From positions 1 through 52,908 of IMG/VR virus record IMGVR_UViG_3300048547_000520: a DNA stretch of 52,908 bases. One strand, written 5' to 3'. The DNA is from a virus. The position numbers were made by a program, and so were the translations under genes. This document shows, one piece after another, positions 6,442-22,827 of the stretch (its first letter is position 1; every line of letters begins with the position of its first letter). The notes below the pieces were generated by a model. That model worked only from the letters and a program-made list of their open reading frames with translations, was not told the DNA's origin and searched no databases.

Positions 6442-7104
6442 ATGCAAGTTAGATTAATCGGATATACTCAACCGGCTACAGGAGAAATCATCGGATTGGA
6501 TGATGTTCAAGATATGATTGCGTATTGTGCAAGAGTATCAAACCCAAGCAACCAATTGAACCAAGAAACTGCTCCTAAACTTTTGGCGTACCTTGCTAAA
6601 CATGCACATTGGTCACCGTTTGAAATGGCAAATGCTACTATGGAAATTGAAACAACTCGTGATATTGCACGTCAGATGTTACGTCACCGTTCTTTTGCTT
6701 TTCAAGAATTTAGTCAACGATACGCAGATCCTGCTCTTATGGGTAACCAATTTGTATTACGCGAAGCGCGTTTGCAAGATACTAAAAATCGCCAAAACAG
6801 TATTGCCAATGATGACGAACGTTTGCAAATGTTGTGGGACTCAAAACAAGGTGAAGTTATTCGTGCTGCAGAAGCTGCATATAAATGGGCAATTGAAAAT
6901 GGTATCGCTAAAGAACAGGCTCGAGCAGTTTTACCTGAAGGTAATACTATTAGTCGTTTGTATATGCAAGGATCTATTCGGTCTTGGATCCATTACATTG
7001 AGTTGCGCGCGTCAAATGGTACTCAGCAAGAACATATGGATATTGCGTCTGAATGCGCAAAGGCTATATCCAAAATATTCCCGTTAATTGATACCTATGT
7101 TTAA
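6442..7104 (+). CDS. thyX: FAD-dependent thymidylate synthase ThyX
   Basis: A 220-residue flavin-dependent thymidylate synthase that methylates dUMP to dTMP using methylene-tetrahydrofolate and NADPH. The ThyX signature is at 81-94 (RHRSFAFQEFSQRY); the usual Ser in the middle is Ala, and the usual Asn is Gln, a variation I have seen in phage ThyX proteins. Downstream motifs EQARAVLPEG and RSWIHYIELR are also typical and carry dUMP-binding Arg residues. It stands between primase and the ribonucleotide reductase genes, forming a DNA precursor block. Confidence 0.93.
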   Translation: MQVRLIGYTQPATGEIIGLDDVQDMIAYCARVSNPSNQLNQETAPKLLAYLAKHAHWSPFEMANATMEIETTRDIARQMLRHRSFAFQEFSQRYADPALMGNQFVLREARLQDTKNRQNSIANDDERLQMLWDSKQGEVIRAAEAAYKWAIENGIAKEQARAVLPEGNTISRLYMQGSIRSWIHYIELRASNGTQQEHMDIASECAKAISKIFPLIDTYV

Positions 7105-7204
7105 AAATAAAAATAAAAAAAGTTTAAATATTGCCCAAAAACAGAAACCTAAATGAATAAATATCCCTACAATTTGACATCTATAGTTAAAGAATATCCC
7201 TTAG

Positions 7205-7220
7205 CCACAATATATTGATC
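7205..7220 (+). promoter_or_regulatory. NrdR-box-like site before nrdB
   Basis: CCACAATATATTGATC matches 12 of 16 positions of the bacterial NrdR box (ACACWATATATWGTGT), including the core CACAATATATTG. It lies 59 bases before nrdB and includes TATATT, the same -10 used by the early promoters of this phage, although the matching -35 is weak. A second box at the usual three-turn spacing was not found. The surrounding 174-base gap (7105-7278) holds no gene longer than 21 codons. Confidence 0.4.
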
Positions 7221-7243
7221 CGATTAAGTCGGGAGGTATATCT

Positions 7244-7282
7244 TTGGCTTTAGCACAAACACATAAGAAAGAGGACCGATGA
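7244..7282 (+). CDS. Possible 12-codon leader ORF coupled to nrdB
   Basis: TTG start at 7244, 8 bases after a GGGAGG ribosome site, encodes MALAQTHKKEDR and stops at a TGA overlapping the nrdB start (ATGATG). A small hairpin CCGA-TTAAG-TCGG lies just before the ribosome site. It may be a translational coupling device or a chance; nrdB has its own AAAGAGGA site. Confidence 0.25.
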   Translation: MALAQTHKKEDR

Positions 7283-8562
7283 TGCTACAATCAACACCAC
7301 CAGAAATTTTAAGACGAGTTAATTACGTTACTAAACGCGATGGTACTACCGAATCTTATGATGAAAATAAAATTAGTACTGCAGTATCTAAAGCTATGAA
7401 AACCGTTGGTATGCGCAGTAAAATGCTTCCTGGTGAAGTTGCGTTGGAAGTTACTGATATGTTGAATAATGACGCCGAAGCAGACATCCAAGTTGATGTT
7501 GATGCCGTACATCAAAAGGTTGAAAACGTAATTATGGACATGGGATTACATGATCTTGCCCGTGAGTATATTCTTTTCCGTTATAATAATCAGCCAAACA
7601 TCTTTCGTAAAAGAACAAGTTTAAAGCCATACGAATATCCACAGGTAGTTGAGTTTACCGACGCTATTCGCCATTCGTATTGGGTTCATACTGAGTTTAA
7701 TTACTCTTCAGATATTCAAGATATGAAAGTTCGTATGACACCTGAAGAGGTTGATATTGTAAAGAAAGCAATGTTGGCTATTTCACAGATTGAAGTTGCA
7801 GTTAAAACGTTTTGGTCAAAGATTGGCGATAAGTTTCCAAAGCCAGAAGTACAAGCGGTTGGCGTAACCTTTGGCGAATCTGAAGTACGCCATGCAGACG
7901 CATATTCAAACCTTATTGAAATTATGGGACTCAATGAAGAGTTTGCAAAAGTTGTAGAAGTACCTGCTATGAAAAAGCGTATTGCTTATCTTGAGCAATC
8001 AATTGCTGCTCCTGTTGATGATAAAGACTATTTTCATAAAATTATTCTATTCTCGATGTTTGTTGAAAACGTATCATTGTTTAGTCAGTTTCTAATTATG
8101 ATGGCATTTAACAAACATAAGAACGTACTCAAAGGTATTTCCAATGCTGTTGAAGCAACATCAAAAGAAGAAGATATCCACGCTCGTTTCGGATTTGAGC
8201 TTGTAAATATTATCCGTGAAGAAAACCCAGAGTGGTTTGATAAAGACACAATTAATGAAGTGAATAGACTTTGCCGTGATGCCTTCAAGGCTGAGTCTGC
8301 TATCGTCGACTGGATCTATGGTGATTCTGATCTAGACTTTTTGCCGAAAGCAACTGTTAAAGAATTCCTAAAACATCGTTTCAACCAATCGTTAACAGCT
8401 ATAGATATGAAGCCTTTATATGAGGTAGATCAAGAAGCGGTAAAAAGTACCGACTGGTTTGTTGAAGAAATTTTGAGCACAAAGAATGTTGATTTCTTTG
8501 TCAAACGTAGTACAGCATATTCTAAAAAGACCAAAGCATTCACTGAAGACGATCTATTTTAA
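7279..8562 (+). CDS. nrdB: Ribonucleotide reductase beta subunit with N-terminal ATP cone
   Basis: A 427-residue class I radical-generating subunit. Residues 14-105 form an ATP cone (VTKRDGTTESYDENKIS), the allosteric activity module normally found on NrdA. The ferritin-like domain follows, with metal ligands visible as E172, E202, H205 (E-V-R-H), E263, E298 and H301 (E-D-I-H). Y209, four residues after H205, sits where E. coli has radical Tyr122. ATP cones on NrdB are known from a few bacteria such as Leeuwenhoekiella blandensis and control oligomerisation of the beta subunit. nrdA follows after 12 bases. Confidence 0.93.
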   Translation: MMLQSTPPEILRRVNYVTKRDGTTESYDENKISTAVSKAMKTVGMRSKMLPGEVALEVTDMLNNDAEADIQVDVDAVHQKVENVIMDMGLHDLAREYILFRYNNQPNIFRKRTSLKPYEYPQVVEFTDAIRHSYWVHTEFNYSSDIQDMKVRMTPEEVDIVKKAMLAISQIEVAVKTFWSKIGDKFPKPEVQAVGVTFGESEVRHADAYSNLIEIMGLNEEFAKVVEVPAMKKRIAYLEQSIAAPVDDKDYFHKIILFSMFVENVSLFSQFLIMMAFNKHKNVLKGISNAVEATSKEEDIHARFGFELVNIIREENPEWFDKDTINEVNRLCRDAFKAESAIVDWIYGDSDLDFLPKATVKEFLKHRFNQSLTAIDMKPLYEVDQEAVKSTDWFVEEILSTKNVDFFVKRSTAYSKKTKAFTEDDLF

Positions 8563-8574
8563 TAAGGAAAAAAC

Positions 8575-10233
8575 ATGAAAGATTTTTATTGGTTAAACGA
8601 GGACTCTCGTACATTTTTGTCACGCGGCTATCTCAGTGAAGGTGAAACTCCTGAGAGCCGTATCCGTGATATTGCAAACAAAGCAGAAGAGTATTTAAAC
8701 GAGCCAGGATTTGCAGACAAGTTTTATGAATACATGGCTCGTGGCTTTTATTCTTTAGCTTCGCCAGTATGGGCTAACTATGGTAAGGAACGTGGTTTGC
8801 CTGTGTCATGTTTTGGATCTTATATTGACGATAGCATGCAAGCTATTTTGTTTGGTCACGCTGAAAATGGTATGCTTATGAAAAACGGCGGCGGTACGTC
8901 AGGTTATTTTGGTAACATCCGCCACCGTGGTGCTCCCATAAGAGACTCAGGAGAATCGTCAGGTTCAGTACACTTTATGCAAATGTATGATACACTCGCA
9001 TCTGTTGTATCACAAGGTTCTGTTCGTCGTGGATTCTTTGCAGCTTATCAAGATATTGAACATCCTGATGCTGATGAATTTTTGGACATTGGTACAGAAG
9101 GTAATCCTATTCAAGGTCTAACAACTGGTATTACTGTTAGCGACAAATTCATTGAAGAAATGAAAGCAGGAGATCCTGAAAAGCGACGTCTATGGGCAAA
9201 AGTTTTGCAACGTCGTTCTGAAGTTGGGTTTCCTTATATCTTATATTCCGATAATGTAAACAACGGAAGACCTCAAGTTTACAAAGATAAAGACTTAAGA
9301 GTATATGCTTCTAATATGTGCGCTGAAATTGCATTACCTTCAAGCCACGAAGAAACGTTTACTTGTGTTCTTTCTTCTATCAATGTATTGCATTGGGATC
9401 AAATTAAAGATACTGACGCAATTGAAACAATGACAAAATTCCTTGATACTGTTTGTGAAGAATTCATTATTAAAACGGAAGGTCAAATTTATTTAAAACG
9501 AGCTCGAGATTTTGCTATGAACCACCGTGCGCTTGGTGTTGGTATTCTTGGATGGCATTCGTTACTTCAATCAAAAATGATGGCCTTTGAAGGTTCAGCT
9601 GCATCAAAGTTGAATTTAGAAATTGCACAAACATTACGTGAAAGATCACATGCGGCGTCTGCAGAATTAGCAAAAACTTTAGGTGAACCACCTTTGCTAA
9701 AAGGTTATGGAATGCGTAATACTACAACGATGGCAATTGCTCCTACTAAATCATCAAGCTTTATTCTTGGCCAAGTATCACAATCCATTGAGCCTGAGTT
9801 TAGCAACTGTTATGTTAAAGATTTGGCCAAAATGAAAGTTACAATCAAAAATCCATATCTGCAAAAACTACTTGAAGATAAAGGCGCAGATACTGTTGAA
9901 ACGTGGGATAGTATTAAAGCAAGAGATGGATCAGTGCAACACCTTGACGAATTGCTGGATGAAAATGAACGAGCTGTATTCAAAACGTTTTCAGAAATTA
10001 ATCCAAACGCAATTATTGACCAGGCTGCAATTCGCCAAGAATACATTGACCAATCGCAAAGTTTAAACCTAATGTTAGATCCTGATATGTCTGTTAAAGA
10101 AATCAATCAAATGTATCTATACGCGTGGGAAATGGGTGTAAAAAGTTTGTATTACAGTTATTCAATGTCCGCAGCGCAATCACTTACTCGAAAGCGTGTA
10201 ATGTTAGAAGGATGCGCAGCCTGCGAAGCTTAA
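8575..10233 (+). CDS. nrdA: Ribonucleotide reductase alpha subunit lacking an ATP cone
   Basis: A 552-residue class I catalytic subunit that reduces NDPs to dNDPs. It is about 200 residues shorter than E. coli NrdA because the N-terminal ATP cone is missing; that cone is on NrdB here. Conserved sites are visible: LPVSCFGS (first redox Cys), [10 protein letters not shown] (active-site Asn, radical Cys and Glu), FTCVLSSIN (second redox Cys), SLYYSYS (radical-transfer tyrosine pair) and a C-terminal CAAC for re-reduction by glutaredoxin or thioredoxin. The phage glutaredoxin at 20143 could serve as donor. The 5-aminolevulinate synthase starts one base after the stop. Confidence 0.95.
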
Positions 10234-10234
10234 T

Positions 10235-11428
10235 ATGAAACATTTGCATTATTTTAAAGACACAGTCAACAATTATAGAGAAGATGGTCGTTATAGAGTT
10301 TTTAATGATATTATAAGAGAACGTGGTGGTTTTCCAAAAGCTATTTGGTATGGTAAATACGCTCCTAAGAATATTGTAAATTGGTGCTCAAACGACTATC
10401 TTGGTATGGGTCAAAACGAATATGTTATTGACGCTATGCATACTGCGCTTGACCAAACAGGGTCAGGTTCCGGCGGTACACGTAATATTGGCGGAACATC
10501 ACAATACCATGTTACGCTTGAACGCGAGCTTGCGACCTTACATAAAAAAGAAGCTGCATTATTGTTTTCAAGTGCATACGTTGCAAACGAGTGGGCAATC
10601 ATTGCTCTTAGCCGTATCATACCAGATATTTGCTTTATATCAGATAATAAAAACCATGCGTCTATAATTATGGGTGTTAAACACAGTCGTGCTGATAAAA
10701 TTGTATTCCGTCATAACGATATGGAAGATCTTGAAGAAGCATTGGTTATGGCAACAGAATGCGGACAAGTACCTTGCATATTATTTGAATCTGTGTATTC
10801 TATGGACGGTGATGTTTCTCCTATTGAAGAGATACTTGACTTAGCAGATAAATATAACGCTATCACATATATTGACGAGGTCCATGCAGTTGGGTTATAT
10901 GGCAATGCAGGCGCAGGTTATTGTGAACACCTCGGTTTAGAAAAAAGGATAGATATTATCAATGGTACACTTGGAAAAGCCTTCGGAGTTCAAGGCGGGT
11001 ATATTAGTGGGGATAGTATTGTTGTTGACGCTATTAGGTCCGTGGCTAGTGGGTTCATCTTTACAACAAGTATATCGCCCGCCGTGTGCGCCGGAGCAAT
11101 TGCCTCAGTCAAATTTCTCAAAGATCATACAGGCTTGCGATCCAGACACCAAGAACGAACAGAAAAATTAAAATTAATGCTTGAAGAAGCTGGTATTCCT
11201 ATACACCCTAATGCTTGCACTCACATTGTTCCTGTAATGGTTAATGATGCGTTTAAATGTAAAGAAGCCAGCGATCGTTTGCTAAATGAATATGGCATTT
11301 ATATTCAAGCAATTAACTCACCTACTGTTGATGTCGGTAGCGAAAGATTAAGAATTGCACCAACGCCATATCACACTGATGTGATGATGGTTGAGTTGGT
11401 AACTGCACTAAAAGAGGTGCTTAAATGA
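10235..11428 (+). CDS. hemA: 5-aminolevulinate synthase (Shemin pathway)
   Basis: A full-length 397-residue PLP enzyme that condenses glycine and succinyl-CoA to 5-aminolevulinate, the first step of haem synthesis in alphaproteobacteria. Residues line up with Rhodobacter ALAS numbering: R21, the GGTRNI substrate loop (T82), H141 in NKNHAS, D214 and H217 in YIDEVHAVG, and the PLP lysine K248 in [17 protein letters not shown] and [11 protein letters not shown] mark it as ALAS, not the related AONS or KBL. No haem-regulatory CP motif is seen at the N-terminus. It begins one base after nrdA and overlaps the next gene by 4 bases. Confidence 0.95.
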
Positions 11429-11898
11429 ATCAACTTGAATCTGCGTTCTTTGGCAGAAGATTACAGAAAGATAATAATATGACAAAAATTAAAAAAGCTT
11501 TTTGGTTTTGCCTAGGAATTATTTTAGTAGGTGTAGCATATCTTGGTGTGTTACTACCTGGTCTACCTTGGTCAACACCAATTCTCGGCGCAACGTTTTG
11601 TTTCGCTAAATCAAGTGACAGACTACACAATTGGATTATGAACCATCCGCGGTTTGGTCCATTCGTTAAAAACTGGTCAAAGTACAGAGTATATCCAACC
11701 GCAGCCAAATGGTTAATGGTTGCAGTTATGTCGACATCTTTAGCATTTATGTATTTTGGTACAGGTAATGAAAAAGCAACACTTTATTTGTTTATTACGT
11801 TTGCCTTAATTGTTACATGGGCATGGCGTTATCCAGGTTCACAAGCAATTGCTGAAAAACGTATTGCCGATGGTAAAAAGATTGGTTGGCTAAAGTAA
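11425..11898 (+). CDS. DUF454 (YbaN-like) inner-membrane protein
   Basis: A 157-residue integral membrane protein of the DUF454 family: [24 protein letters not shown], then [17 protein letters not shown], followed by two more hydrophobic segments. Function of the family is unknown. The start at 11425 overlaps the hemA stop and has AGAGG at 8 bases, so it should be coupled to hemA; a start at 11479 would fit the usual family N-terminus but has a poorer ribosome site. Its strict linkage to 5-aminolevulinate synthase hints at a haem or tetrapyrrole connection. Confidence 0.82.
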
Positions 11899-11940
11899 AT
11901 AAATAAACTTATATAATATGAATATGATGAAAGGTATATT

Positions 11941-12966
11941 ATGGCAAAACGTATTCTAATTACTGGTGGCGGTGGTTTTATTGCTCACCATTTAATTAAT
12001 CAGGTACTCATCCGAACAGACTGGGAAATTGTAACGCTTGATCGTTTAGATTATAGCGGCAATCTCAATCGTCTCCATGATTTACTTCAGGAACGAACTC
12101 CTACTGAGCGCAAACGCGTACGGACGATCTTTCACGATTTAAAGGCTGAAATCAACCCAATGCTTGAAGCAGACATTGGTCCTGTTGATATTATCGCGCA
12201 CCTTGCCGCGGGTTCTCACGTTGACCGCTCTATTGAGCGTCCTATGGAATTTGTTATGGATAACGTTGTAGGTACAGCTAATCTTTTAGATTATGGCCGC
12301 CGGCAAGATAATCTTGAACGGTTTCTATACTTTTCAACTGACGAAGTATTTGGACCTGCTCCAGATGGAATTAAGTACGACGAATATGATCGTTATAATT
12401 GTACCAATCCATATTCAGCATCTAAGGCAGGAGCTGAGGAATTGGCTGTTGCATATCAGAATACTTATAATATGCCAATTTATATTACTCACACAATGAA
12501 TGTGTTTGGCCAACGTCAACATCCTGAAAAGTTTATTCCTATGACTATTAGGAATGTACGAGATGGTGGAACTGTTACTATTCATAGCGATGCAAGTAAA
12601 ACAATTCCAGGATCCCGCCATTACATTCATGCCGAAGATGTTGCTGACGCAACTATGTTTTTGTTAGAACACAACCGCACTTTAGATATGTCAAACAATA
12701 GTGGCATTAAATGTCCTAAGTTTAATATCTGCGGCGCAACAGAGCTTAACAATTTAGAACTTGCAAATCTTATTGCTGACGCGCAAGGAAAGGAACTTAA
12801 ATATGAATTTATGGATTTCCATTCTAGCCGTCCTGGGCATGATCTTCGTTATGCTCTTAGTGGTGATCGTATGGCGAATATGGGTTGGCGTCCACAACCT
12901 GTTAGAGAAAGAATTGCTGAAGTGGTTCAGTGGACTTTAGACAATAGAAGGTGGCTTGACGTATGA
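11941..12966 (+). CDS. NAD-dependent sugar-nucleotide epimerase/dehydratase (RmlB-like)
   Basis: A 341-residue extended SDR enzyme. The Rossmann motif GGGGFIAHH lies at 9-17, the TDE triad segment typical of dTDP-glucose 4,6-dehydratases at 133-135, and catalytic Tyr158-xxx-Lys162 in YSASK. SGNLNRL, HLAAGSHVDRSIERP and NVFGQRQHPEKFIP also match RmlB-like 4,6-dehydratases. Substrate (dTDP-glucose or another NDP-sugar) cannot be read from sequence. It opens the surface-sugar block and overlaps the methyltransferase gene by 4 bases. Confidence 0.85.
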   Translation: MAKRILITGGGGFIAHHLINQVLIRTDWEIVTLDRLDYSGNLNRLHDLLQERTPTERKRVRTIFHDLKAEINPMLEADIGPVDIIAHLAAGSHVDRSIERPMEFVMDNVVGTANLLDYGRRQDNLERFLYFSTDEVFGPAPDGIKYDEYDRYNCTNPYSASKAGAEELAVAYQNTYNMPIYITHTMNVFGQRQHPEKFIPMTIRNVRDGGTVTIHSDASKTIPGSRHYIHAEDVADATMFLLEHNRTLDMSNNSGIKCPKFNICGATELNNLELANLIADAQGKELKYEFMDFHSSRPGHDLRYALSGDRMANMGWRPQPVRERIAEVVQWTLDNRRWLDV

Positions 12967-13538
12967 ACTTTCAAACAATTATAAACCAAACATATAATGA
13001 GTGGTCCGCAAAGCCTACTGATATTAATGAGCATCTTCCGATTTTAAAAGACTATGCTGAACATTGTAAACACGTAACTGAAATGGGAGTTCGTCGTGGC
13101 GCGAGCTCTCGAGCATTCCTAACCTGCGACGTAGTATTACGATCATATGACATTTATGAAGAAGCAAGCGTAACTGAATTATTTGCGCAGGCGCTTGAAG
13201 CAGGTAAAGATGTACAGTATATCATTAAAGATGTATTGCAAGTTAAAATTGAACCAACTGATATGTTGTTTATTGATACGTGGCATTCACAAGCTCAGTT
13301 GAAACAAGAACTTGCTATGCACGGCAATGTACCAACAAAATTCTTAGCGTTCCACGACACTCATACATATGGTACCGTTGACGAAAGTATGGAATGGGCT
13401 TCAAATCCAAACCGTAAAGCAATCAAAGGTCAAGGATTGCTTCCAGCCATTATTGAATTTATTATGGTAAATCCTCATTGGAAATTTAGAGACCATAGAA
13501 CAAACAATAACGGACTGACAATATTAGAAAGATCATAA
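12963..13538 (+). CDS. Class I methyltransferase-like protein
   Basis: A 191-residue protein with a SAM-methyltransferase pattern: VTEMGVRRGASSRAF as the glycine-rich loop, RSYDIYE as the acidic second-strand motif, DMLFIDTWHSQAQL and FLAFHDTHTYG as strand 4 and 5 segments. It resembles sugar O-methyltransferase or cephalosporin-hydroxylase-like proteins found in phage and bacterial glycan clusters. The His and Asp positions at FIDTWH and HDTHTYG could bind metal. Substrate is likely a sugar, given the neighbours. Confidence 0.65.
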   Translation: MNFQTIINQTYNEWSAKPTDINEHLPILKDYAEHCKHVTEMGVRRGASSRAFLTCDVVLRSYDIYEEASVTELFAQALEAGKDVQYIIKDVLQVKIEPTDMLFIDTWHSQAQLKQELAMHGNVPTKFLAFHDTHTYGTVDESMEWASNPNRKAIKGQGLLPAIIEFIMVNPHWKFRDHRTNNNGLTILERS

Positions 13539-15107
13539 ATGAAAATTGTAGATTGCTTTCCATTTTTTGCTCCGACTAACGAAGAAATTCTGCAGCTTCG
13601 AGTTAATATGCTAAAAGATGTGGTTGATAACTTTATCATCGTTGAGTCTAATAAGACCCATAGCGGCGCGCCTGTTGAAAGAAAGTTTCTTGAAATTGCA
13701 AGGAACCTCGGCCTTCCTATGGAAAAAATCATTTACATTGAGCATGATATTCCTGATGATAATGAATTGATTGTCATGCCGATTGACCAGCAAAATGCTG
13801 GTAGAAATAGTAGCTTAGAATCTATACTGTGCCGTGTACGCGAGCGTCTACAAAAAGATGCTGTTATGGAAGGTATGAAAGATTTTGATACAGATGATGT
13901 TTTTATATATGGCGATGCAGACGAAATCGTAGATCCTAAAAACGTTAAGTGGTTAGCTGAACTTGTTCAACAAAATAGTAATCACTCTATTCTTAAAATA
14001 CCTTTAGTTTATTTGCAAGGCCGAGCTGATTTAAGAGTATATCATAAATCTACAGGTGCCTTTAGAATTTGGCAACGAGCTATGTTTATGGCAACTAAAC
14101 ACCAGGTTAATAGGTCAGGCGGCATGTTAAACATTCGTTGTGGCAATATGCCATTTAAGCTACAGTTTGCAATGCACGGCGGACAAATGATACAAGATCT
14201 TGGTTGGCACTTTGCATGGATGGGAACAAATTCTCAACGTGAAACAAAAGCCAAATCTTTTGCCCACGCTTTTGATAAACTCCAATGGATGAAAACGTTA
14301 GATGGTTATAACGATGGGGCATATAAGAAATTTGTAAAGGATACACAACCAGTTGAAGGTGGACCTGCTCCTGACGGATTTGCAGACCATGTGTTGAAAA
14401 GATATCCACTTGCCAAGCTTCCATCTATGCTTTTGCAAAATCAGAAGTTAAGAGATTTCTTTTTACCTGAAACAGACCTGTTTAAAGAATTTAAGTTTTC
14501 ACCTTGCGAATGCTTTTGGTGTAATAAACTTTCATGGCCTTTATTATATGATCTTGATGAAAAACAAACTTGGTTTGAAGTGCCAAGAAGTTGTTCGGTT
14601 ACAATTAAGGAAACACATCCTGAACGAAAGCAAATTTTTAGAGATACAAAAGAATATAAAGCAGTCATAAAAAATAAAAAGGATAAAGGTACACCTATCG
14701 TCGTGTTCACAGATCCTGTTGAAAGATTTGTTTCTTTAATTAACGTATACTTAACCGAAGGGCAAAGATATTATGATTATGGAAAAGATATTTTTAATTC
14801 GTTTGGTAAAAACCTTGGTGAGTGTACAAAGCAAGAAAAAATAGACTTGTTCTTTAAAAATCTCCATAAGATATCAGGCGCGCATCAAGTACATCATTTC
14901 CATCCGCAGTGCATGTTTGTTGATACTAAAAACTTTAAAGAGTTTCAAGTTATTAATAAACATGAAGTCAATAACTTTTTTAAAATAAACAAAGTACTAA
15001 ACTTTACAGTAAAAGAAATCACTGCAGACGATTTCAGTAAAGACCAAGTTGACTTTATTAAATGGATTTATATTTCAGATTACAATTTCATTGAGAAGTA
15101 CGGCTGA
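13539..15107 (+). CDS. GT17 glycosyltransferase fused to a sulfotransferase-like domain
   Basis: A 522-residue two-domain protein. Residues 1-300 are a glycosyltransferase family 17 domain (VDCFPFFAPTNEEIL start, IIVESNKTHSG, metal-binding DADE at 126-129, GWHFAWMG). A Cys-rich linker (CECFWCN) leads to residues 340-522, which look like a sulfotransferase: VPRSCSVTIK at 348-357 resembles the 5'-phosphosulfate loop of PAPS enzymes, and VVFTDPVERFVSL at 388-400 resembles the 3'-phosphate motif, with Thr in place of the usual Arg. Such a protein could transfer a sugar and sulfate on the same glycan. Activity of the second domain is inference. Confidence 0.75.
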   Translation: MKIVDCFPFFAPTNEEILQLRVNMLKDVVDNFIIVESNKTHSGAPVERKFLEIARNLGLPMEKIIYIEHDIPDDNELIVMPIDQQNAGRNSSLESILCRVRERLQKDAVMEGMKDFDTDDVFIYGDADEIVDPKNVKWLAELVQQNSNHSILKIPLVYLQGRADLRVYHKSTGAFRIWQRAMFMATKHQVNRSGGMLNIRCGNMPFKLQFAMHGGQMIQDLGWHFAWMGTNSQRETKAKSFAHAFDKLQWMKTLDGYNDGAYKKFVKDTQPVEGGPAPDGFADHVLKRYPLAKLPSMLLQNQKLRDFFLPETDLFKEFKFSPCECFWCNKLSWPLLYDLDEKQTWFEVPRSCSVTIKETHPERKQIFRDTKEYKAVIKNKKDKGTPIVVFTDPVERFVSLINVYLTEGQRYYDYGKDIFNSFGKNLGECTKQEKIDLFFKNLHKISGAHQVHHFHPQCMFVDTKNFKEFQVINKHEVNNFFKINKVLNFTVKEITADDFSKDQVDFIKWIYISDYNFIEKYG

Positions 15108-15349
15108 TGCGAGTCAAACCAAATGAAGCTGGGGTACATTACTTACAGCAAGAAATCAAACAACACAAATCTGAAAAGGCAATGCTACGAAGCGATATTG
15201 ACGGTTTACGTGGACAAAACATGATGCTTATGGATACGCTTGATGCGTTAACTGAAGATGAAAGCTATTGGTCTAAAGAAGCACTACAAACTGGTATTGT
15301 GTTTAAACTTAAAAATGTTTTGAACCAAATAAGGCAAGATAGAAAATAA
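15107..15349 (+). CDS. Hypothetical coiled-coil protein
   Basis: An 80-residue protein starting in a TGATG overlap with the fusion gene. A central coiled coil (YLQQEIKQHKSEKAML) is followed by acidic and basic helices. No family recognised. It ends 3 bases before an early promoter. Confidence 0.55.
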   Translation: MRVKPNEAGVHYLQQEIKQHKSEKAMLRSDIDGLRGQNMMLMDTLDALTEDESYWSKEALQTGIVFKLKNVLNQIRQDRK

Positions 15350-15352
15350 CCA

Positions 15353-15381
15353 TTGACATACTCAATAGAATCAGTTATATT
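15353..15381 (+). promoter_or_regulatory. Early sigma70-type promoter
   Basis: TTGACA 15353-15358, 17 bases, TATATT 15376-15381, with the family flank GAATCAGT directly before the -10. It drives the secreted hydrolase at 15413. Confidence 0.85.
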
Positions 15382-15387
15382 AGTAAC

Positions 15388-15395
15388 TATAAATA
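15388..15395 (+). promoter_or_regulatory. Late-promoter-like TATAAATA
   Basis: TATAAATA follows 6 bases after the early -10 box and lies 17 bases before the start codon at 15413. The start is close for a promoter leaving a ribosome site (TTGAGG), so it may be functional or chance. Confidence 0.4.
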
Positions 15396-15412
15396 TAAAT
15401 TGAGGCACGACA

Positions 15413-15940
15413 ATGAAACTGAAACAAATTATCGCAGCAACAGTATCCGCAGCTTTGACTGGAACAATAGTTGTAGGATCTTTTACACTACCTGTAATTG
15501 CAGCAGAACAAGAAAGACTATATAACGAAGGAGAAGCTAACTGTTTGGCTTTGAACATATACTATGAAGCACGTGGCAGCAACCTTGCAGATAAAGCTGG
15601 AGTTGCAGATGTAGTTTTAAATAGAAAGTACGATACACGTTATCCTAACACAATATGTGAAGTTGTTCAGCAAGGCCTTAAAAATTCAGATGGTTCAATG
15701 AAGCGCAATAAATGCCAGTTTAGCTGGTACTGCGACGGAAAATCTGATAATCCGCAAGATCAAGATCGTTGGAATGAAGCTCAAATGATTGCATTCCAAT
15801 TGCTTGAGTTTGGAAAATATCGTGGTATTACTGAAGGAGCTACTCATTATCATGCAACTTATGTAAGTCCGCGTTGGGCTAAAGACCTTCAACAGATTGG
15901 CCGTCTTGGTGCTCATATATTTTATCGTTGGGACGCATAA
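15413..15940 (+). CDS. Secreted SleB-type cell-wall hydrolase
   Basis: A 175-residue protein with an N-terminal Sec signal (hydrophobic 5-30, cleavage near VIAAEQ). The mature part matches the SleB/CwlJ hydrolase domain: ALNIYYEARGSNLADK with probable catalytic Glu52, VADVVLNRKYDTRYP, CQFSWYCDG and ATHYHATYVSPRWA. These enzymes are lytic transglycosylases or amidases acting on peptidoglycan. A signal-bearing hydrolase under an early promoter, separate from the late endolysin, suggests a role other than final lysis, such as superinfection control or wall remodelling; this is inference. Confidence 0.85.
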   Translation: MKLKQIIAATVSAALTGTIVVGSFTLPVIAAEQERLYNEGEANCLALNIYYEARGSNLADKAGVADVVLNRKYDTRYPNTICEVVQQGLKNSDGSMKRNKCQFSWYCDGKSDNPQDQDRWNEAQMIAFQLLEFGKYRGITEGATHYHATYVSPRWAKDLQQIGRLGAHIFYRWDA

Positions 15941-16243
15941 ATGATGTTAGATACTAAAGCACAAGGTTTTTTTGATAAAAACATTAATCTTATGGTTCCT
16001 TGGTATCTTATGGCTGCATACGCATATTATAAAGAAGATGACCCAATATTATCAGATTACTTTTTTGATAACATGGCAAAAGTAATGTTAGATAAATGGA
16101 ATGAAATAGAACACTTTCATAAACATTTAATTGGTCCTATGGATCTAGTAGCGGGTACTTACCTTGGTGAATATCCTAATCGTGTAATAGACGGTTTGCA
16201 CCATTTGCGACCGATAAATAAAAGAAGGAAACGCAAAAGATGA
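15941..16243 (+). CDS. Hypothetical protein resembling DNA ligase domain Ia
   Basis: A 100-residue helical protein. AYAYYKEDDPILSDYFFDNMAK with a following IEHFHKHLI resembles the YYxxDxPxxSDxxYDxL helix hairpin (domain Ia) of NAD-dependent DNA ligases, which binds NMN, but no ligase catalytic domain is present. The family occurs as a stand-alone protein in marine T4-like phages. The C-terminus is very basic (NKRRKRKR). Confidence 0.5.
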   Translation: MMLDTKAQGFFDKNINLMVPWYLMAAYAYYKEDDPILSDYFFDNMAKVMLDKWNEIEHFHKHLIGPMDLVAGTYLGEYPNRVIDGLHHLRPINKRRKRKR

Positions 16244-16572
16244 GTAATGAACGTTATGCAATGATAACCGTAGTCTCAACACACCGCATGAGATACGCAG
16301 TACCAATTGGCGAATTGCAAAAATTAAACCCAAATACAAAACTTGAAGGAAACGACAAAGAAGCTTTAACCTGGGCTGAAGAACTTGTAATGGAAGAACG
16401 AGTTAAAGAATTTTCTCAAAAATGGTTAGGTGAACAAACCGTTGATAGAAATGTTTTAACACAGGAAGAAGCAATAAAGTTATTTGATTCTGATAACGAA
16501 TATCTTGCTGATTGGACAGAAGAGCAAAAAATTAAAACCCTTCGCCGTTGGGAAGATGAAAGCGTAATGTAA
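16240..16572 (+). CDS. Hypothetical protein
   Basis: A 110-residue soluble protein overlapping its upstream neighbour by 4 bases. The start MSNERYAMITVVSTHRMRYAVP forms probable beta strands, the rest is helical and acidic. I recognise no named family. It lies in a run of overlapping small genes. Confidence 0.6.
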   Translation: MSNERYAMITVVSTHRMRYAVPIGELQKLNPNTKLEGNDKEALTWAEELVMEERVKEFSQKWLGEQTVDRNVLTQEEAIKLFDSDNEYLADWTEEQKIKTLRRWEDESVM

Positions 16573-16811
16573 TGCAACATACTATTGAAGATTTAATTAG
16601 ACGTATAGAAGTTATGAAAGACAAAGCTGTTATGGTTCATCGTCTTAGAAATCAATATAGTGATTTGGCAGAGCAAAAATATGATGCTCAAGCGTGCCAA
16701 GTTTTGATTGAAGACATACAATCACTTGCTCTAGGAATTGCCCACGATAAAGAAGGCAAAGAAATACTAACAGAAATGGAATATAAAAATGTCAAAAGAA
16801 TGGAACCCTGA
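16572..16811 (+). CDS. Hypothetical helical protein
   Basis: A 79-residue, mainly helical protein whose start overlaps the previous stop by one base (TAATG). No known motif. Its end overlaps the next gene by 23 bases. Confidence 0.5.
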   Translation: MQHTIEDLIRRIEVMKDKAVMVHRLRNQYSDLAEQKYDAQACQVLIEDIQSLALGIAHDKEGKEILTEMEYKNVKRMEP

Positions 16812-17124
16812 CAGTTGGATCTTATTTAAAGTAAAGAACCACGAAACACCTCACTACCGTTTATTATGTGGATGGGCAGAAGGAACCGCAAAAACTGAAT
16901 GGAAAATTTCAGGTGGTATTTTAAAACATGAAGAATCAGAGGATGGTTTGTCTCGGATATTCACAACAACTAAATCTACATATGTTTGTGAAAAGTCATC
17001 TTACGTAATTGAAAACCACATTTATCATGTATGGCAATCATTACAAGACGATCCTAGTAAAGATGTTGAAAAACTAAAAGACTCTGATTTAGATTTTGAT
17101 AATATGGAATGGCTTAAAATATGA
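16789..17124 (+). CDS. Hypothetical protein
   Basis: A 111-residue protein with beta-rich central segment (HYRLLCGWAEG, EWKISGGI, YVCEKSSYVIEN). It resembles a small family of unknown function in marine phages. It overlaps both neighbours. Confidence 0.55.
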   Translation: MSKEWNPDSWILFKVKNHETPHYRLLCGWAEGTAKTEWKISGGILKHEESEDGLSRIFTTTKSTYVCEKSSYVIENHIYHVWQSLQDDPSKDVEKLKDSDLDFDNMEWLKI

Positions 17125-17912
17125 AAATTCAAATAGCAGGATACGGTTTTGTTGGTAAGGCTCACGCGTTTGCTCTTGCTGGCGGAAACGATAGTGTTAT
17201 TGTTTATGACCCTGCTTTAGGATATACAAATTGGTACGAAGACGCTGATTGCGTCATCATTGCGGTAAGTACCCCAGAAAATGAAGATGATGGGTCTTGT
17301 GATATGCGTAACGTATATGGCGTTCTTGAAACTTGCCCTGATGTTCCAATTCTAATTAAATCAACCATTAGCTTAGAAGGATGGGTCTCAATTGAAAATA
17401 ATTTCCCTGATAAACAGATTACGTTTTCACCAGAATACCTCAGAGCTAACCATGCTGTTGAAGATTTTAAAAAGCAACAAGTAATACAACTCGGCGGCGG
17501 TGAAATTGCATTTTGGGTAGAACTGTTATCAAAAAAGCTAAACTGTAAATTAGAAGTTGCCGATCCTAAAGAATTAATTTTATCTAAATATTTTATTAAT
17601 TCATTTTTAGCAACTAAAGTGGCATTCTTTAATCAAGTTTATGATTTATGTGAAGCTGCTGGAGTTGATTACGCATTAGTATCTCATTTTATAACACAAG
17701 ACCGTAGGATAGGAAAAAGCCATACTCAGATTACACGTGAGCGTGGATTTGGTGGCCATTGTTTTCCAAAAGACACAAGTGCTATATGTAGAACAGGTGA
17801 GCGTTATGGAGAAAGCATGTCTATTATTGAATCAGCTAGAAAATACAATAACCAATTGAGAATGGATATGTCAAATGTTATACATATTGATACAGCTAAA
17901 AGTAACCAATAA
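17121..17912 (+). CDS. Short UDP-glucose/GDP-mannose dehydrogenase-like protein
   Basis: A 263-residue nucleotide-sugar dehydrogenase relative. N-terminal NAD fold (IAGYGFVGKAHA), the TFSPEYLR segment with Glu105 and the central helix (ELILSKYFINSF with Lys156 and Asn160) match UDP-glucose 6-dehydrogenases; catalytic Cys214 is in GFGGHCFPKD. The C-terminal UDP-binding domain of the usual 400+ residue enzyme is absent, so substrate binding must differ or come from a partner. It is followed directly by a cytidylyltransferase, consistent with nucleotide-sugar synthesis. Confidence 0.82.
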   Translation: MKIQIAGYGFVGKAHAFALAGGNDSVIVYDPALGYTNWYEDADCVIIAVSTPENEDDGSCDMRNVYGVLETCPDVPILIKSTISLEGWVSIENNFPDKQITFSPEYLRANHAVEDFKKQQVIQLGGGEIAFWVELLSKKLNCKLEVADPKELILSKYFINSFLATKVAFFNQVYDLCEAAGVDYALVSHFITQDRRIGKSHTQITRERGFGGHCFPKDTSAICRTGERYGESMSIIESARKYNNQLRMDMSNVIHIDTAKSNQ

Positions 17913-18320
17913 ATGAAAATTGGATTTACAGCATCAGCTTTTGATCTGCTCCATGCAGGACATGTTCAAATGTTACGTGATGCAAAAGAACAGTGTGACT
18001 ATTTGATTTGTGGTTTGCAAATTAACCCAGCGCTAGATCGCCCCGAAAAAAACGCTCCAGTTCAAACAATTGTCGAGCGTTACACGCAACTAAAGGCTAT
18101 AAGTTATGTTGATGAGATCATTCCGTATTTGACAGAAGACGATCTTTGTGATATATTATCAATGTACCACATAGATATGCGGGTCCTCGGAGTTGAGTAT
18201 AAAGAAAAAGATTTTACAGGCAAAGATATTTGCCGCAAACGTGGTATTGATTTATATTTTAATAAACGAGATCACCGTTTTAGCACAAGTGATTTAAGAA
18301 GGAGAGTTTGTAATGACTGA
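17913..18320 (+). CDS. Cytidylyltransferase (TagD-like)
   Basis: A 135-residue nucleotidyltransferase with the HxGH motif (H14-A-G-H17) and the closing FSTSDLRRR (variant of ISTTxLR). Length and motifs fit glycerol-3-phosphate cytidylyltransferase or ethanolamine-phosphate types, which make CDP-activated alcohols. The substrate is not readable. It starts immediately after the dehydrogenase stop (TAAATG), so the two are likely co-translated. Confidence 0.8.
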   Translation: MKIGFTASAFDLLHAGHVQMLRDAKEQCDYLICGLQINPALDRPEKNAPVQTIVERYTQLKAISYVDEIIPYLTEDDLCDILSMYHIDMRVLGVEYKEKDFTGKDICRKRGIDLYFNKRDHRFSTSDLRRRVCND

Positions 18321-18492
18321 CGGACCATTTAAGAATGCGTTTGACGCCGACACTGAAGGTGTAATTAGACGCGAGATTATTACCTATCGTATGCGTAATG
18401 GGAATATGATTAAAGAAGAAGCGAGCCGTGACTATTATGCTTCAGGCGATTATCATGATAATCAAAATATTAAACCTTTGGTGGAACGATAA
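18313..18492 (+). CDS. Small conserved phage protein (59 residues)
   Basis: ATG at 18313 overlaps the preceding gene by 8 bases, with AAGGAGAG just upstream. The protein opens MTDGPFKNAFDADTEG, then VIRREIITYRM and YYASGDYHDNQ. This pattern is familiar from many phages of marine bacteria, function unknown. Confidence 0.7.
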   Translation: MTDGPFKNAFDADTEGVIRREIITYRMRNGNMIKEEASRDYYASGDYHDNQNIKPLVER

Positions 18493-18493
18493 G

Positions 18494-18733
18494 ATGGCTA
18501 AACTACCAGAAGGCAGAAAGCCACTTACAATGAATGATTTAAACTCACTTGGTATTATCCAAAATGATATTTACAGTACAGCTGATATTATCAAGCAAGA
18601 CACTTTATGGTTAGCTCGACTACGTGTAATAGCAGACGATCTTGATTCCGATGAAGTTCGCCAAATTGCTAGCAGGTTTGAGAGCCTTACTACAACAGCA
18701 CATAATCGGAAACATTGGACAGGAAGAGAATAA
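18494..18733 (+). CDS. Hypothetical protein
   Basis: A 79-residue helical protein starting MAKLPEGRKPL one base after the previous stop; an upstream in-frame ATG at 18428 is less likely because it runs through the preceding gene and lacks a ribosome site. No recognised domain. Confidence 0.55.
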   Translation: MAKLPEGRKPLTMNDLNSLGIIQNDIYSTADIIKQDTLWLARLRVIADDLDSDEVRQIASRFESLTTTAHNRKHWTGRE

Positions 18734-18849
18734 TGGAAACGAACGATGAAAGTAAACATTTAATTTTTGAACGCGTTGGTAAAATTGTTTACGCTCGATA
18801 TTTTGGAGATCCTCCTCTAACTCGCTGGGTATACAAGGTATTAGACTAA
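18733..18849 (+). CDS. Mini protein (38 residues)
   Basis: ATG overlaps the previous stop (TAATG) with AGGAAGAG upstream. Sequence includes VGKIVYARYFGDPP and ends TRWVYKVLD, a compact beta-rich fold by appearance. No family recognised. The exact tiling with both neighbours supports a real gene. Confidence 0.5.
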   Translation: METNDESKHLIFERVGKIVYARYFGDPPLTRWVYKVLD

Positions 18850-19010
18850 TGTGGATATTATTTGTAATAACATTGGTTTCAGAACATAACGAATACAAAG
18901 TAACAGAATTTAATCGTTACAGCACTCGCCAACAGTGTAATATTAACCAAGCTGTTTTATCTGCAACCTTTGAGGATAACGAATTGGCGGCGTGCGCATG
19001 GCAGAAATAA
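18849..19010 (+). CDS. Mini protein with hydrophobic N-terminus (53 residues)
   Basis: Starts in the TAATG overlap of the 38-residue gene. A short hydrophobic start (MWILFVITLV) is followed by a polar part with two Cys (C30, C49). It may be membrane-bound or secreted. Overlaps the next gene by 13 bases. Confidence 0.45.
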   Translation: MWILFVITLVSEHNEYKVTEFNRYSTRQQCNINQAVLSATFEDNELAACAWQK

Positions 19011-19723
19011 AAAAATTCATATTTGATGTTGACGGAACTCTTACACCGAGTCGCCGGCGCATAAACAAACATTTTGAAAAATGGTTTTGGGGTTTTATTC
19101 AAACAAACAAAACATGGCTTGTTACTGGCAGTGACTATCCAAAAACTTTAGAACAGCTTGGTAAGGATATTTGCGAAGAAGTTGTTACTGTATATAATTG
19201 CAGCGGAAATGAAACAAGATTTCGCGGTAAGATCGTCAATGCTTCAAGTTGGCAATTACCTGATAGCGCTCGCCATTGGTTGGAAATGGAACTTGTTCGT
19301 TCGCCGTTTTTACCACAAACTGGTAATCATATTGAAGAACGCCGCGGCTGTGTTAACTTTAGTATTGTAGGACGTAATGCAACTGCAGAACAAAGATTAC
19401 GGTATATCAAATATGATAGAAAAAACAATGACCGCTTACACACAGCAAGAACTTTCAATTATGTATTTGGTTCTGAAAGCTTAGGATTAACTGCGCAAAT
19501 CGGTGGTGAAACAGGATTAGACATTTATCCTATTGGAAGAGATAAAGCTCAAATCCTAGATGATTTTAGTAAAGACGATGAAATTTATTTCTTTGGAGAT
19601 AAAATGGAAATCGGCGGAAACGATTGGTCTTTAGCAAATGCATTAAAAGATTATCCTAATGCTAGATGTTTTCAAGTTAAAGATTGGCAAGATACGTGGG
19701 AGACATTAAACAATGTGGTTTAA
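18998..19723 (+). CDS. Eukaryote-type phosphomannomutase (HAD family)
   Basis: A 241-residue HAD phosphatase-fold enzyme. FIFDVDGTLTP gives the nucleophile Asp10 and general acid Asp12; the family marks VTGSDYPKTLEQLG, the cap-domain NFSIVGRNATAEQR, IGGETGLDIYPIGRDK and FFGDKMEIGGND are those of the PMM family of eukaryotes (mannose-6-P to mannose-1-P), not the bacterial ManB type. A GTG start 6 bases upstream is possible. It would supply mannose-1-phosphate for GDP-mannose-type sugars in the phage glycan set. Specificity for glucose versus mannose phosphate is uncertain. Confidence 0.85.
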   Translation: MAEIKKFIFDVDGTLTPSRRRINKHFEKWFWGFIQTNKTWLVTGSDYPKTLEQLGKDICEEVVTVYNCSGNETRFRGKIVNASSWQLPDSARHWLEMELVRSPFLPQTGNHIEERRGCVNFSIVGRNATAEQRLRYIKYDRKNNDRLHTARTFNYVFGSESLGLTAQIGGETGLDIYPIGRDKAQILDDFSKDDEIYFFGDKMEIGGNDWSLANALKDYPNARCFQVKDWQDTWETLNNVV

Positions 19724-19886
19724 AAAGAAAAACGACGTGTACGAAATTGATTATGATAAAGACGTAGCACCAGTTCAGCTACCGAAACGCGAAACACCTT
19801 TGCCTGAAATCCTCAGCGAAGTTTTAAAAAGAATAGAAAATATTGAAAAAAAGATTGACAAAATTCTTATAAAAACTCCTAAATAA
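19713..19886 (+). CDS. Small hypothetical protein (57 residues)
   Basis: ATG at 19713 within the end of the PMM gene. Starts MWFKKKNDVYEIDYDKD and ends in a heptad-like lysine/isoleucine helix (RIENIEKKIDKIL). No family recognised; probably a small coiled-coil protein. Confidence 0.5.
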   Translation: MWFKKKNDVYEIDYDKDVAPVQLPKRETPLPEILSEVLKRIENIEKKIDKILIKTPK

Positions 19887-19903
19887 CAATAAAGGAGGAG
19901 TCA

Positions 19904-20149
19904 ATGTTTACAATAGAAATGGACATGGAAGAAACGTTAATTACTCTACTTGATCCTGAAGGAAAAGAAGAAGACGTTCAATTTATTTTATATGAAGACA
20001 TTACATATGTTCGACAATGGTGTGAAGAGACGCAAAGGTTTTCTGTAATAGCATTAACTGCCACGCAGTTTAACCAGCTTGTACATTCTTTTGACTTACC
20101 TGAAGGTACATACATGTTACAAAAGAAAGGATGGAATTCAGAATGGTAG
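19904..20149 (+). CDS. Conserved hypothetical protein
   Basis: An 81-residue protein with strong AAAGGAGGAG site. MFTIEMDMEETLITLLD, EDITYVRQW and IALTATQFNQL match a family common in marine T4-like phages with unknown function. It ends inside the glutaredoxin gene start. Confidence 0.65.
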   Translation: MFTIEMDMEETLITLLDPEGKEEDVQFILYEDITYVRQWCEETQRFSVIALTATQFNQLVHSFDLPEGTYMLQKKGWNSEW

Positions 20150-20391
20150 TTATATATGGTAAAAGCGCTTGCGGATTTTGTTTGCGTGCTAAAAAGTTAG
20201 CAGAACGCCACGGCCTAGAATACGAATATAAAAACATTGACTTTGACCAATACAGAACAGAAATGTATGATTTAAAACCTGATGCAGAAACAGTTCCACA
20301 AATTTGGTGGCACGATAATTACATCGGTGGATATAACGAGTTTGCTACAGAAATTGAAAACACTCGAAACTTTGGCCAAGATTCATTTTAA
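20143..20391 (+). CDS. Glutaredoxin
   Basis: An 82-residue glutaredoxin. VVIYGKSACGFCLRAKKLAE holds the redox pair C10-G-F-C13, and TVPQIWWHDNYIGGYNEF the cis-Pro and GSH-site glycine pair. The start at 20143 is preferred to 20131 because the ribosome site GAAAGG directly abuts 20131. Likely electron donor for the phage ribonucleotide reductase (C-terminal CAAC of NrdA). Confidence 0.88.
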   Translation: MVVIYGKSACGFCLRAKKLAERHGLEYEYKNIDFDQYRTEMYDLKPDAETVPQIWWHDNYIGGYNEFATEIENTRNFGQDSF

Positions 20392-20394
20392 CTA

Positions 20395-20423
20395 TTGACA
20401 TTACTCTTTAAATGTGGTAGATT
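20395..20423 (+). promoter_or_regulatory. Early sigma70-type promoter
   Basis: TTGACA 20395-20400, 17 bases, TAGATT 20418-20423, followed by the shared leader GATTCTAT and AAAAGGAAT. Confidence 0.8.
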
Positions 20424-20451
20424 GATTCTATCAAATGAAAAGGAATACATT

Positions 20452-20694
20452 ATGACATACACAGTTGAACTAGACATCTCACACGAAGCAGCACACGACG
20501 AGGTTGTACGATTTGCAATTGAACATGGTTGTACCACTCAACTTATAACGGCTAATGGCCCAGCTGGTGGCAACCCGCTTTATCTTTTCAAATCTGAATC
20601 ATTCGATATGCTCCAGGAATTGTATGAACAAGTTATGGGTCACGGCCACGGCTTTGACGAAGAAGAACTTAAAACTATGTTTGTAGAGGTATAG
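20452..20694 (+). CDS. Conserved hypothetical early protein
   Basis: An 80-residue protein; the start at 20452 fits the AAAAGGAA site and leader layout of the promoter family. SHEAAHDEVVRFA and ITANGPAGGNPLYLF are familiar from marine phages, no function known. Confidence 0.7.
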   Translation: MTYTVELDISHEAAHDEVVRFAIEHGCTTQLITANGPAGGNPLYLFKSESFDMLQELYEQVMGHGHGFDEEELKTMFVEV

Positions 20695-20696
20695 TA

Positions 20697-21044
20697 ATGA
20701 CTATGCATCTTGTGCGAGGGATGAGTTCCCTTAATACTAAAAAACGTAAAATTAAAAATAAAAGCAAACGGTTGCAAGCTGCAGAGGCTGAACACGAGGC
20801 GTTTCTAGCACGCGTAGGGTATACTGTTAAGAAACAAGATTACCGTTATGAGCTACCCAATTATAATACAGGACCTCGAGTAACCTCTGATCGTGTTGCT
20901 GGTAATGGCTCTATGAAAGAACAAATGAAATACACTGGTAATGAAATTGCAGGCATTGTAACTACTCATAAATCCAACCTTATGCCAGTTCGCAAGGACA
21001 ACAAAAAAGCAATGGTTGACGCAGCACAAATGCGGAGATCCTAA
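20697..21044 (+). CDS. Conserved hypothetical protein
   Basis: A 115-residue basic protein: KKRKIKNKSKRLQAAEAEHEAFLARVGY, then polar part with PRVTSDRVAGNGSMKE. Seen in other marine T4-like phages. No enzymatic motif. Two bases separate it from the previous gene. Confidence 0.6.
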   Translation: MTMHLVRGMSSLNTKKRKIKNKSKRLQAAEAEHEAFLARVGYTVKKQDYRYELPNYNTGPRVTSDRVAGNGSMKEQMKYTGNEIAGIVTTHKSNLMPVRKDNKKAMVDAAQMRRS

Positions 21045-21199
21045 TGTGGAATATTATTCAGCTTCTTGTTTATGGCCACGTTCATCGGTGGCATATCATT
21101 CAAACTGACATCGTTAAACTTCCTAGTAAAAAGCTATCACGTAAATATACTATGCAATGTAAAATGTGTGGTAATATCAAAACTAAGATCGCTAAATGA
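21044..21199 (+). CDS. Small zinc-ribbon-like protein (51 residues)
   Basis: ATG overlaps the previous stop by one base, with CGGAGAT upstream. HVHRWHIIQ then YTMQCKMCGNIK: one C-x-x-C pair and several His suggest a half zinc ribbon. Family known from marine phages; function unknown. Confidence 0.6.
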   Translation: MWNIIQLLVYGHVHRWHIIQTDIVKLPSKKLSRKYTMQCKMCGNIKTKIAK

Positions 21200-21202
21200 T
21201 GG

Positions 21203-21210
21203 TATAAATA
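21203..21210 (+). promoter_or_regulatory. T4-type late promoter
   Basis: TATAAATA followed by AT, 25 bases before the GIY-YIG gene. Confidence 0.65.
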
Positions 21211-21234
21211 ATCCTATTACTATGGGGTTATTCT

Positions 21235-21669
21235 ATGTGGCATTACAAAGGTGAGGAATTCACCTCTGAACATATTGGAGATTATATTGGCTTTGTCTAT
21301 ATAATCACTGATGGTTCTAACGATAAAAAATATATCGGTAAAAAGCTTTTCAAATCAAAAAGAAGACTTAAACCTTTAAAAGGTAAAACTCGACGCCGCA
21401 CAAAAGTTGTTGAGTCAGATTGGCAAAAATATTATGGTTCTTCTGAAGAAGTCAAACTTATGGTTGAAGAAAAAGGCCCAGATAACTTTTACCGTGAAAT
21501 AATACATCTTTGCGATAAGAAAGGTGAAATGGGCTATCTCGAACTTTATGAACAAATTACTCGTCATGCGTTGTTGGACGACTCATATTATAACGGCATA
21601 TGCCAAGCTAAAATCCATAGAAGCCACGTTAAGGGATTAAAATGGCTCATGGATGATAGTAATGGTTGA
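21235..21669 (+). CDS. GIY-YIG domain protein
   Basis: A 144-residue protein with a GIY-YIG-type N-terminal fold: GFVYII at 19-24 and KYIGKK at 32-37 spaced 10 residues, followed by a basic insert (KGKTRRRTK) and DWQKYYGSS. This nuclease fold occurs in free-standing homing enzymes, but here no DNA-binding C-terminal repeats are seen, and close relatives are fixed in many marine T4-like phages, suggesting a house-keeping phage nuclease. The stop codon is inside the next -35 box. Confidence 0.75.
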   Translation: MWHYKGEEFTSEHIGDYIGFVYIITDGSNDKKYIGKKLFKSKRRLKPLKGKTRRRTKVVESDWQKYYGSSEEVKLMVEEKGPDNFYREIIHLCDKKGEMGYLELYEQITRHALLDDSYYNGICQAKIHRSHVKGLKWLMDDSNG

Positions 21670-21694
21670 CATTTCTATTAGAATAGATTATATT
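21666..21694 (+). promoter_or_regulatory. Early sigma70-type promoter
   Basis: TTGACA 21666-21671, 17 bases, TATATT 21689-21694; GAATAGAT precedes the -10. A second partial copy of the flank (GAATCAGTTA) follows at 21701. Confidence 0.85.
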
Positions 21695-21722
21695 AATCTA
21701 GAATCAGTTAATGGAGAATGTC

Positions 21723-21953
21723 ATGATTATCAAAAAAACAAGTGCCTTTTCAGGAATTGTCCGCACAAAGGATATTCCTATGGATCCTAAAGACTTTGCT
21801 CAATACGAAGCTGGGTACGGAAGTATGGATGACTTACTTCCTTACTTATCAATTGAAGATCGTGAATTCATTCTTTCGGGCATGACACCTCAAGAATGGA
21901 AAAATGCGTTTTCCGAAGAAATTCTAAATATCGTGGAGGACCAATTTGCATGA
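21723..21953 (+). CDS. Conserved hypothetical early protein
   Basis: A 76-residue protein; start at 21723 chosen because GGAG at 21714-21717 fits it. KTSAFSGIVRTKDIPMDP and LLPYLSIEDREFILSGMTPQEW match a small family of marine phages. Unknown function. Overlaps the kinase gene by 4 bases. Confidence 0.65.
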   Translation: MIIKKTSAFSGIVRTKDIPMDPKDFAQYEAGYGSMDDLLPYLSIEDREFILSGMTPQEWKNAFSEEILNIVEDQFA

Positions 21954-22624: not shown

Positions 22625-22805
22625 AAATCCTTATGACATTGAAACTTTTTTTGAAGGCCTTGAAATCATGGCAGATAATGGAAAAGAACTATTCTTTGTA
22701 GACAGGGTTTTATCAAGAATAAGAAAAGAACCTACTATTGATTTAGCTACGGCCACCTTTGAAGTATTAAGAGATTACGAAGTAGTAAAGTTGGTATTTA
22801 AATAA
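22566..22805 (+). CDS. Hypothetical protein
   Basis: A 79-residue protein with a GTG start behind AAAAGGAAGGAC, overlapping the kinase gene by 59 bases in another frame. Helical and acidic, no recognised motif. If real it is an unusually long overlap. Confidence 0.5.
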   Translation: MDKSANRTETQRYLKSVFNENPYDIETFFEGLEIMADNGKELFFVDRVLSRIRKEPTIDLATATFEVLRDYEVVKLVFK

Positions 22806-22827
22806 CATATATAAAGTGAGATAGATT

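Follow-up and report, generated by a model that had tools for sequence, protein, structure and literature searches.

A T4-type phage encodes a 5-aminolevulinate synthase in a conserved neighbourhood of ribonucleotide reductase and DUF454 genes

We analysed the virus record IMGVR_UViG_3300048547_000520, which comes from an uncultured phage and is called here, at its full length of 52,908 bases, the window. The record encodes T4-type head/capsid, portal, sheath and terminase genes. The closest major capsid proteins among isolates were those of the Sinorhizobium phages phiN3/phiM12 (67–68% identity), and further matches were found in Methylophilales phage Melnitz (64%) and Pelagibacter phage HTVC008M (63%). 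The closest isolate portal protein belonged to the phiM12 group (52% identity). The features of the locus under study are collected in Table 1.

Table 1. Genes and motifs around alaS in the window
Feature	Position	Strand	Evidence
thyX, flavin-dependent thymidylate synthase (nucleotide block)	6442..7104	+	Pfam PF02511, E 7e-42
ATAAATA late-promoter-like motif, gap before nrdB	7157..7163	+	Strand and position bias; 22/22 same-layout relatives
nrdB, class I ribonucleotide reductase (RNR) small subunit, N-terminal ATP-cone	7279..8562	+	Pfam PF00268, PF03477
nrdA, class I RNR large subunit, short, without ATP-cone	8575..10233	+	Pfam PF02867
alaS (vAlaS), 5-aminolevulinate synthase (ALAS)	10235..11428	+	TIGR01821, PDB ALAS matches, active site, tree
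DUF454 (YbaN-like) membrane protein	11425..11898	+	Pfam PF04304, E 2e-27
Second ATAAATA motif, directly 3' of DUF454, ahead of sugar-nucleotide genes	11899..11905	+	Motif scan

The genes nrdB, nrdA, alaS and DUF454 follow each other in this order in a tight run. The alaS frame runs uninterrupted from its ATG to its stop and encodes 397 amino acids, as the initial annotation of a complete ALAS had stated. It starts one base after the end of nrdA, and at its other end the stop codon shares bases with the ATG of DUF454. This junction had been described as a fusion to the nrdB-nrdA operon by a one-base gap; the gap is present, but the proteins are not fused and the junction is that of an operon. 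The RNR at 7279–10233 has an uncommon layout, in which the ATP-cone lies on NrdB and the coneless NrdA has only 552 aa. Its closest isolate NrdA/NrdB were found in Sporosarcina and Staphylococcus phages. Many relatives also carry thyX 5' of RNR. In the window, a sugar-nucleotide block at 11941–24047 encodes an epimerase, glycosyltransferases, UDP-glucose dehydrogenase and a eukaryotic-type phosphomannomutase domain. No RNA element was matched by Rfam anywhere in the window.

ALAS catalyses the step with which haem synthesis begins. We compared the alaS product with protein families and structures. The NCBIfam model TIGR01821 gave 559.8 bits, which passes the equivalog cut-off of 338.6. The glycine C-acetyltransferase and BioF models gave 320 and 314 bits, and the BioF, KBL and serine palmitoyltransferase (SPT) models all remained at or below 320 bits, each under its own cut-off. 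The top PDB sequence matches were ALAS of Rhodopseudomonas palustris (7x98) and Rhodobacter capsulatus (2bwn). An AlphaFold2 model (pLDDT 91.6, pTM 0.90) matched the ALAS structures 7x98 and 2bwo at TM of about 0.97, and KBL/AONS ranked lower. Alphaproteobacterial ALAS (HemA) is homologous over the full length, with a common fold and common catalytic residues, at about 50–52% identity in the structural alignment.

The catalytic residues listed in the initial annotation, R21, D214, H217 and K248, are all intact; K248 is the PLP lysine, and D214 and H217 are the catalytic Asp/His. Among the 80 viral relatives described below, D214, H217 and K248 occur in 80 and R21 in 79, the remaining one being a fragment. 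The residues R21, T82, N84, I85, H141, D214, H217, K248, T364 and R373 are fixed in all viral relatives that cover them. On the substrate side, R21, T82, N84 and T364 (query numbering) are fixed in the covering viral and bacterial ALAS and mostly differ in the AONS/KBL outgroup. The ALAS-type substrate residues R21, T83 and N85 (R. capsulatus numbering) are present in the window protein. Synonymous divergence of alaS was far above amino-acid divergence (dN/dS 0.05–0.12 against relatives, for pairs with unsaturated dS), and therefore the gene is under purifying selection. Between the window and one relative (L002), identity is 99% for the neighbouring nrdA and epimerase but 88% for alaS. Because the synonymous divergence of alaS is only somewhat higher, this difference reflects faster change of alaS at the protein level in this pair.

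A scan of IMG/VR showed at least 131 encoded relatives of the viral ALAS (vAlaS), of which 80, with 68–100% identity, were retained. The best bacterial identity to the window ALAS was 57% in GTDB contigs, and also 57% in 240 genomes of the class searched. Viral ALAS formed one clade beside alphaproteobacterial ALAS in two trees (SH-aLRT 97 and 100), both of them quick trees without bootstraps, the second with other bacterial sampling. Bacterial contamination was ruled out, since the record carries T4-type structural genes, 80 viral contigs hold close relatives and no bacterial match exceeds 57% identity. When 50,697 phage records were searched by tblastn, no close ALAS relative was found. The matches had only 26–36% identity and were not counted as vAlaS, because we read them as AONS/KBL-type or carried-over bacterial genes. 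The alaS region had no nucleotide-level match among isolate phages either. The T4-like isolates with the nearest capsids (63–68% identity to that of the window; the Sinorhizobium phiM12 group, HTVC008M and Melnitz) have no close ALAS relative, unlike the window phage. The statement that classic T4-like phages lack this arrangement is therefore true for isolates.

ALAS shares its fold and PLP chemistry with other alpha-oxoamine synthases, and KBL/AONS structures still align at TM of about 0.9. The protein could thus be AONS, KBL, SPT or an autoinducer synthase that takes a different acyl-CoA, but we regard this as extremely improbable. The scores for those families lie below their cut-offs and that for ALAS lies far over its own, and the ALAS-specific residues are retained. 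In the tree, a long branch with SH-aLRT 100 separates ALAS, the window protein included, from the AONS/KBL outgroup. Placement among AONS/KBL, the outcome that the initial annotation had set against its own proposal, did not occur. In addition, a vAlaS relative was assayed as ALAS in the 2024 paper discussed below. AONS, KBL and SPT are ruled out by profile scores, residues and tree. The ALAS profile, the active site, the tree and the predicted fold agree that the frame encodes a full-length ALAS. From its sequence we strongly infer that this enzyme is catalytically active.

Phage ALAS was first described in 2024 by Wegner et al. in marine and freshwater phage contigs (PMC11480375). These vAlaS come from aquatic metagenomes, belong to myovirus-type phages and are about 55% identical to bacterial ALAS; their genes occur alone or alongside haem oxygenase and PcyA/X. 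Like the window ALAS, they retain the active-site residues and form a clade apart from the bacterial enzymes. One of them rescues the 5-ALA auxotroph E. coli ST18 and makes 5-ALA. Because phage ALAS has been published with E. coli complementation, it is not new as a kind, and the complementation test put forward in the initial annotation has already been made with a relative. An estuary study of 2026 counted viral alaS genes and transcripts (PMC13390420). The window alaS belongs to this already known vAlaS group. The 2024 paper emphasises cassettes with haem oxygenase and PcyA/X, and its main text mentions none of nrd, ribonucleotide reductase, thyX, DUF454 or YbaN. Beyond this, the present analysis adds the conserved setting RNR-alaS-DUF454 and a connection of DUF454 with haem oxygenase.

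The initial annotation had proposed a search of viral databases for the ALAS gene beside RNR genes. We found RNR within 600 bases upstream of alaS, mostly within about 65 bases, in 72 of 79 IMG/VR vAlaS loci (the 80 loci minus one with too short upstream DNA). Three layouts occur: nrdB-nrdA as in the window (type 1, 25 loci), nrdA (765 aa) then nrdB (type 2, 18 loci), and nrdA (596 aa) then an nrdB frame that starts with a glutaredoxin-like stretch (type 3, 29 loci). These loci are not independent, and 50 of them are distinct at 95% identity; 43 of the 50 have RNR, with types 1, 2 and 3 in 15, 11 and 17 loci. Thus three RNR lineages fill the slot upstream of alaS, and the vAlaS tree requires three or more changes of RNR type. 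In one type 3 locus (L046, about 6763–8001), the glutaredoxin-like opening of the nrdB frame suggests a glutaredoxin-NrdB fusion. On a deep vAlaS branch (L065 and L076), alaS adjoins DUF454 without RNR, so the alaS-DUF454 pair may be the older unit. RNR and DUF454 also occur together in three other loci (L183, L184 and L197), where different genes separate them and alaS is missing. Since these lack alaS and some vAlaS loci have no adjoining RNR, neither RNR nor DUF454 is obligatory. In another locus, the gene that separates alaS from DUF454 (L198:5667-6017) encodes an iron-sulphur cluster assembly protein (PF01521).

ATAAATA is a short motif that we liken to the late promoter of T4-like phages. 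It occurs 23 times in the window, and this count was not above that of shuffled sequences, so enrichment by raw count was dropped and the signal lies in strand and position only. All 23 copies point along the local gene direction, and 15 of them are intergenic, while intergenic DNA makes up 7.7% of the window. The copies lie mostly 18–50 bases ahead of genes, as would suit a strand-specific promoter-like motif; examples are 1252, 3781, 7157, 11899 and 15389 on the plus strand and 35238, 36287, 37025, 38211, 40324, 42254 and 49752 on the minus strand. Among relatives, the motif was found ahead of RNR in 22/22 loci of type 1, 11/16 of type 2 and 0/22 of type 3. Its placement in the window supports a putative single transcript from nrdB to DUF454.

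DUF454, which the initial annotation does not name, is the most consistent partner of vAlaS apart from RNR. In 72 loci the sequence extends 700 bases or more beyond alaS, and 66 of them have DUF454 downstream; in a reciprocal scan the majority of viral DUF454 genes adjoined alaS. Bacterial ALAS loci differ in this respect, since the DUF454 profile matched none of 95 such loci (mean 8.9 kb). In E. coli, ybaN (DUF454) is in the Fur regulon, as is nrdHIEF (PMC7157518; PMC10164565). Type 11 secretion (T11SS) genes of cluster 1 often have DUF454 and haem oxygenase nearby (PMC12282271). Among 30 haem oxygenase loci drawn from 398 proteobacterial genomes, 12 had DUF454 within 1.5 kb. When we began with the best-scoring bacterial DUF454 loci, no gene within 1.5 kb stood out as a plausible recurring neighbour. 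The association appeared only when we started from haem oxygenase; therefore it concerns a subset of DUF454. The DUF454 tree splits the copies linked to haem oxygenase between two positions, and it unites the viral copies in a single group (SH-aLRT 99) that is nested with neither linked set. A haem link is thus supported for part of the family and may extend to the phage copy. The predicted structure of the phage protein is all helical, with moderate confidence, and a fold search with it gave no meaningful PDB match.

Loss of the haem-inhibition residues His342 and Cys400 has been reported in many vAlaS and interpreted as escape from feedback in the 2024 paper (PMC11480375). The window ALAS shares this trait: the residue aligned with R. 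capsulatus His342 is K341, and the C-terminal Cys is absent. In our sample of 65 bacterial ALAS, however, a single one carries His in this position. The loss of His342 is therefore not phage-specific, and we rejected it as proof of feedback insensitivity.

The initial annotation had suggested that haem precursor and dNTP supply are raised at the same stage. The tight gene run, the flanking motifs and the RNR-alaS order across three lineages give this idea indirect support. We consider it likely that a working phage ALAS is co-transcribed with class I RNR and DUF454 and sustains 5-ALA and haem in infection, with DUF454 in the same task. The ALAS, the RNR and the DUF454 membrane protein would be made from one transcription unit. 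The vAlaS would keep 5-ALA, and hence haem, flowing while host gene expression fails, and respiration and other haem enzymes, sustained in this way, could pay for phage DNA synthesis. DUF454 would most likely act in the same haem/iron task. A more far-reaching and rather doubtful extension is that RNR-alaS-DUF454 is a dedicated phage iron/haem module that ties dNTP synthesis to haem synthesis in one transcript, with DUF454 as a membrane partner of haem metabolism in phages and bacteria alike.

The vAlaS might instead chiefly feed haem turnover, in which a phage haem oxygenase and bilin reductase release iron or make bilin pigments, rather than supply haem for respiration. The two genes are paired in 5 of 50 vAlaS records (L010, L016, L030, L050 and L069), three-gene cassettes are described in the 2024 paper (PMC11480375), and bacterial DUF454 adjoins haem oxygenase, as noted above. 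However, the other 45 records, most of them fragments, have neither gene. Neither was found in the 52.9 kb window, itself a fragment; a weak bilin reductase match at 136–225 was taken as chance (E 0.064; no Pfam match). Moreover, haem that is made only for breakdown gives no net iron, and we judge this explanation improbable.

The supply of haem during infection, as preferred here, must also be set against the view that alaS lies beside RNR by positional accident. Vertical descent with in-place recombination would preserve such adjacency, and the purpose of alaS would not be tied to dNTP supply. The whole thyX-RNR-alaS-DUF454-epimerase block is conserved among close relatives, so linkage of alaS and RNR is expected there without selection. 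Some phages lack alaS at the same place, and RNR could be swapped in place without any functional tie to alaS. Against this, the order persists across three RNR lineages and down to about 70% identity among vAlaS. A positional accident therefore seems to us a weaker explanation, though a less remote one than haem turnover.

These results suggest that phage control of tetrapyrrole supply is more widespread than isolates imply. Phage ALAS usually adjoins dNTP genes and is not confined to pigment cassettes. The conserved three-part neighbourhood of RNR, ALAS and an iron/haem-linked membrane protein points to haem/iron supply during infection. If the module reading is true, a single phage transcript would couple haem synthesis to dNTP synthesis, which depends on an iron enzyme. 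DUF454 is an uncharacterised family of membrane proteins, controlled by Fur in E. coli; its repeated association with phage ALAS and, in a separate setting, with haem oxygenase of bacteria offers a testable lead on its function.
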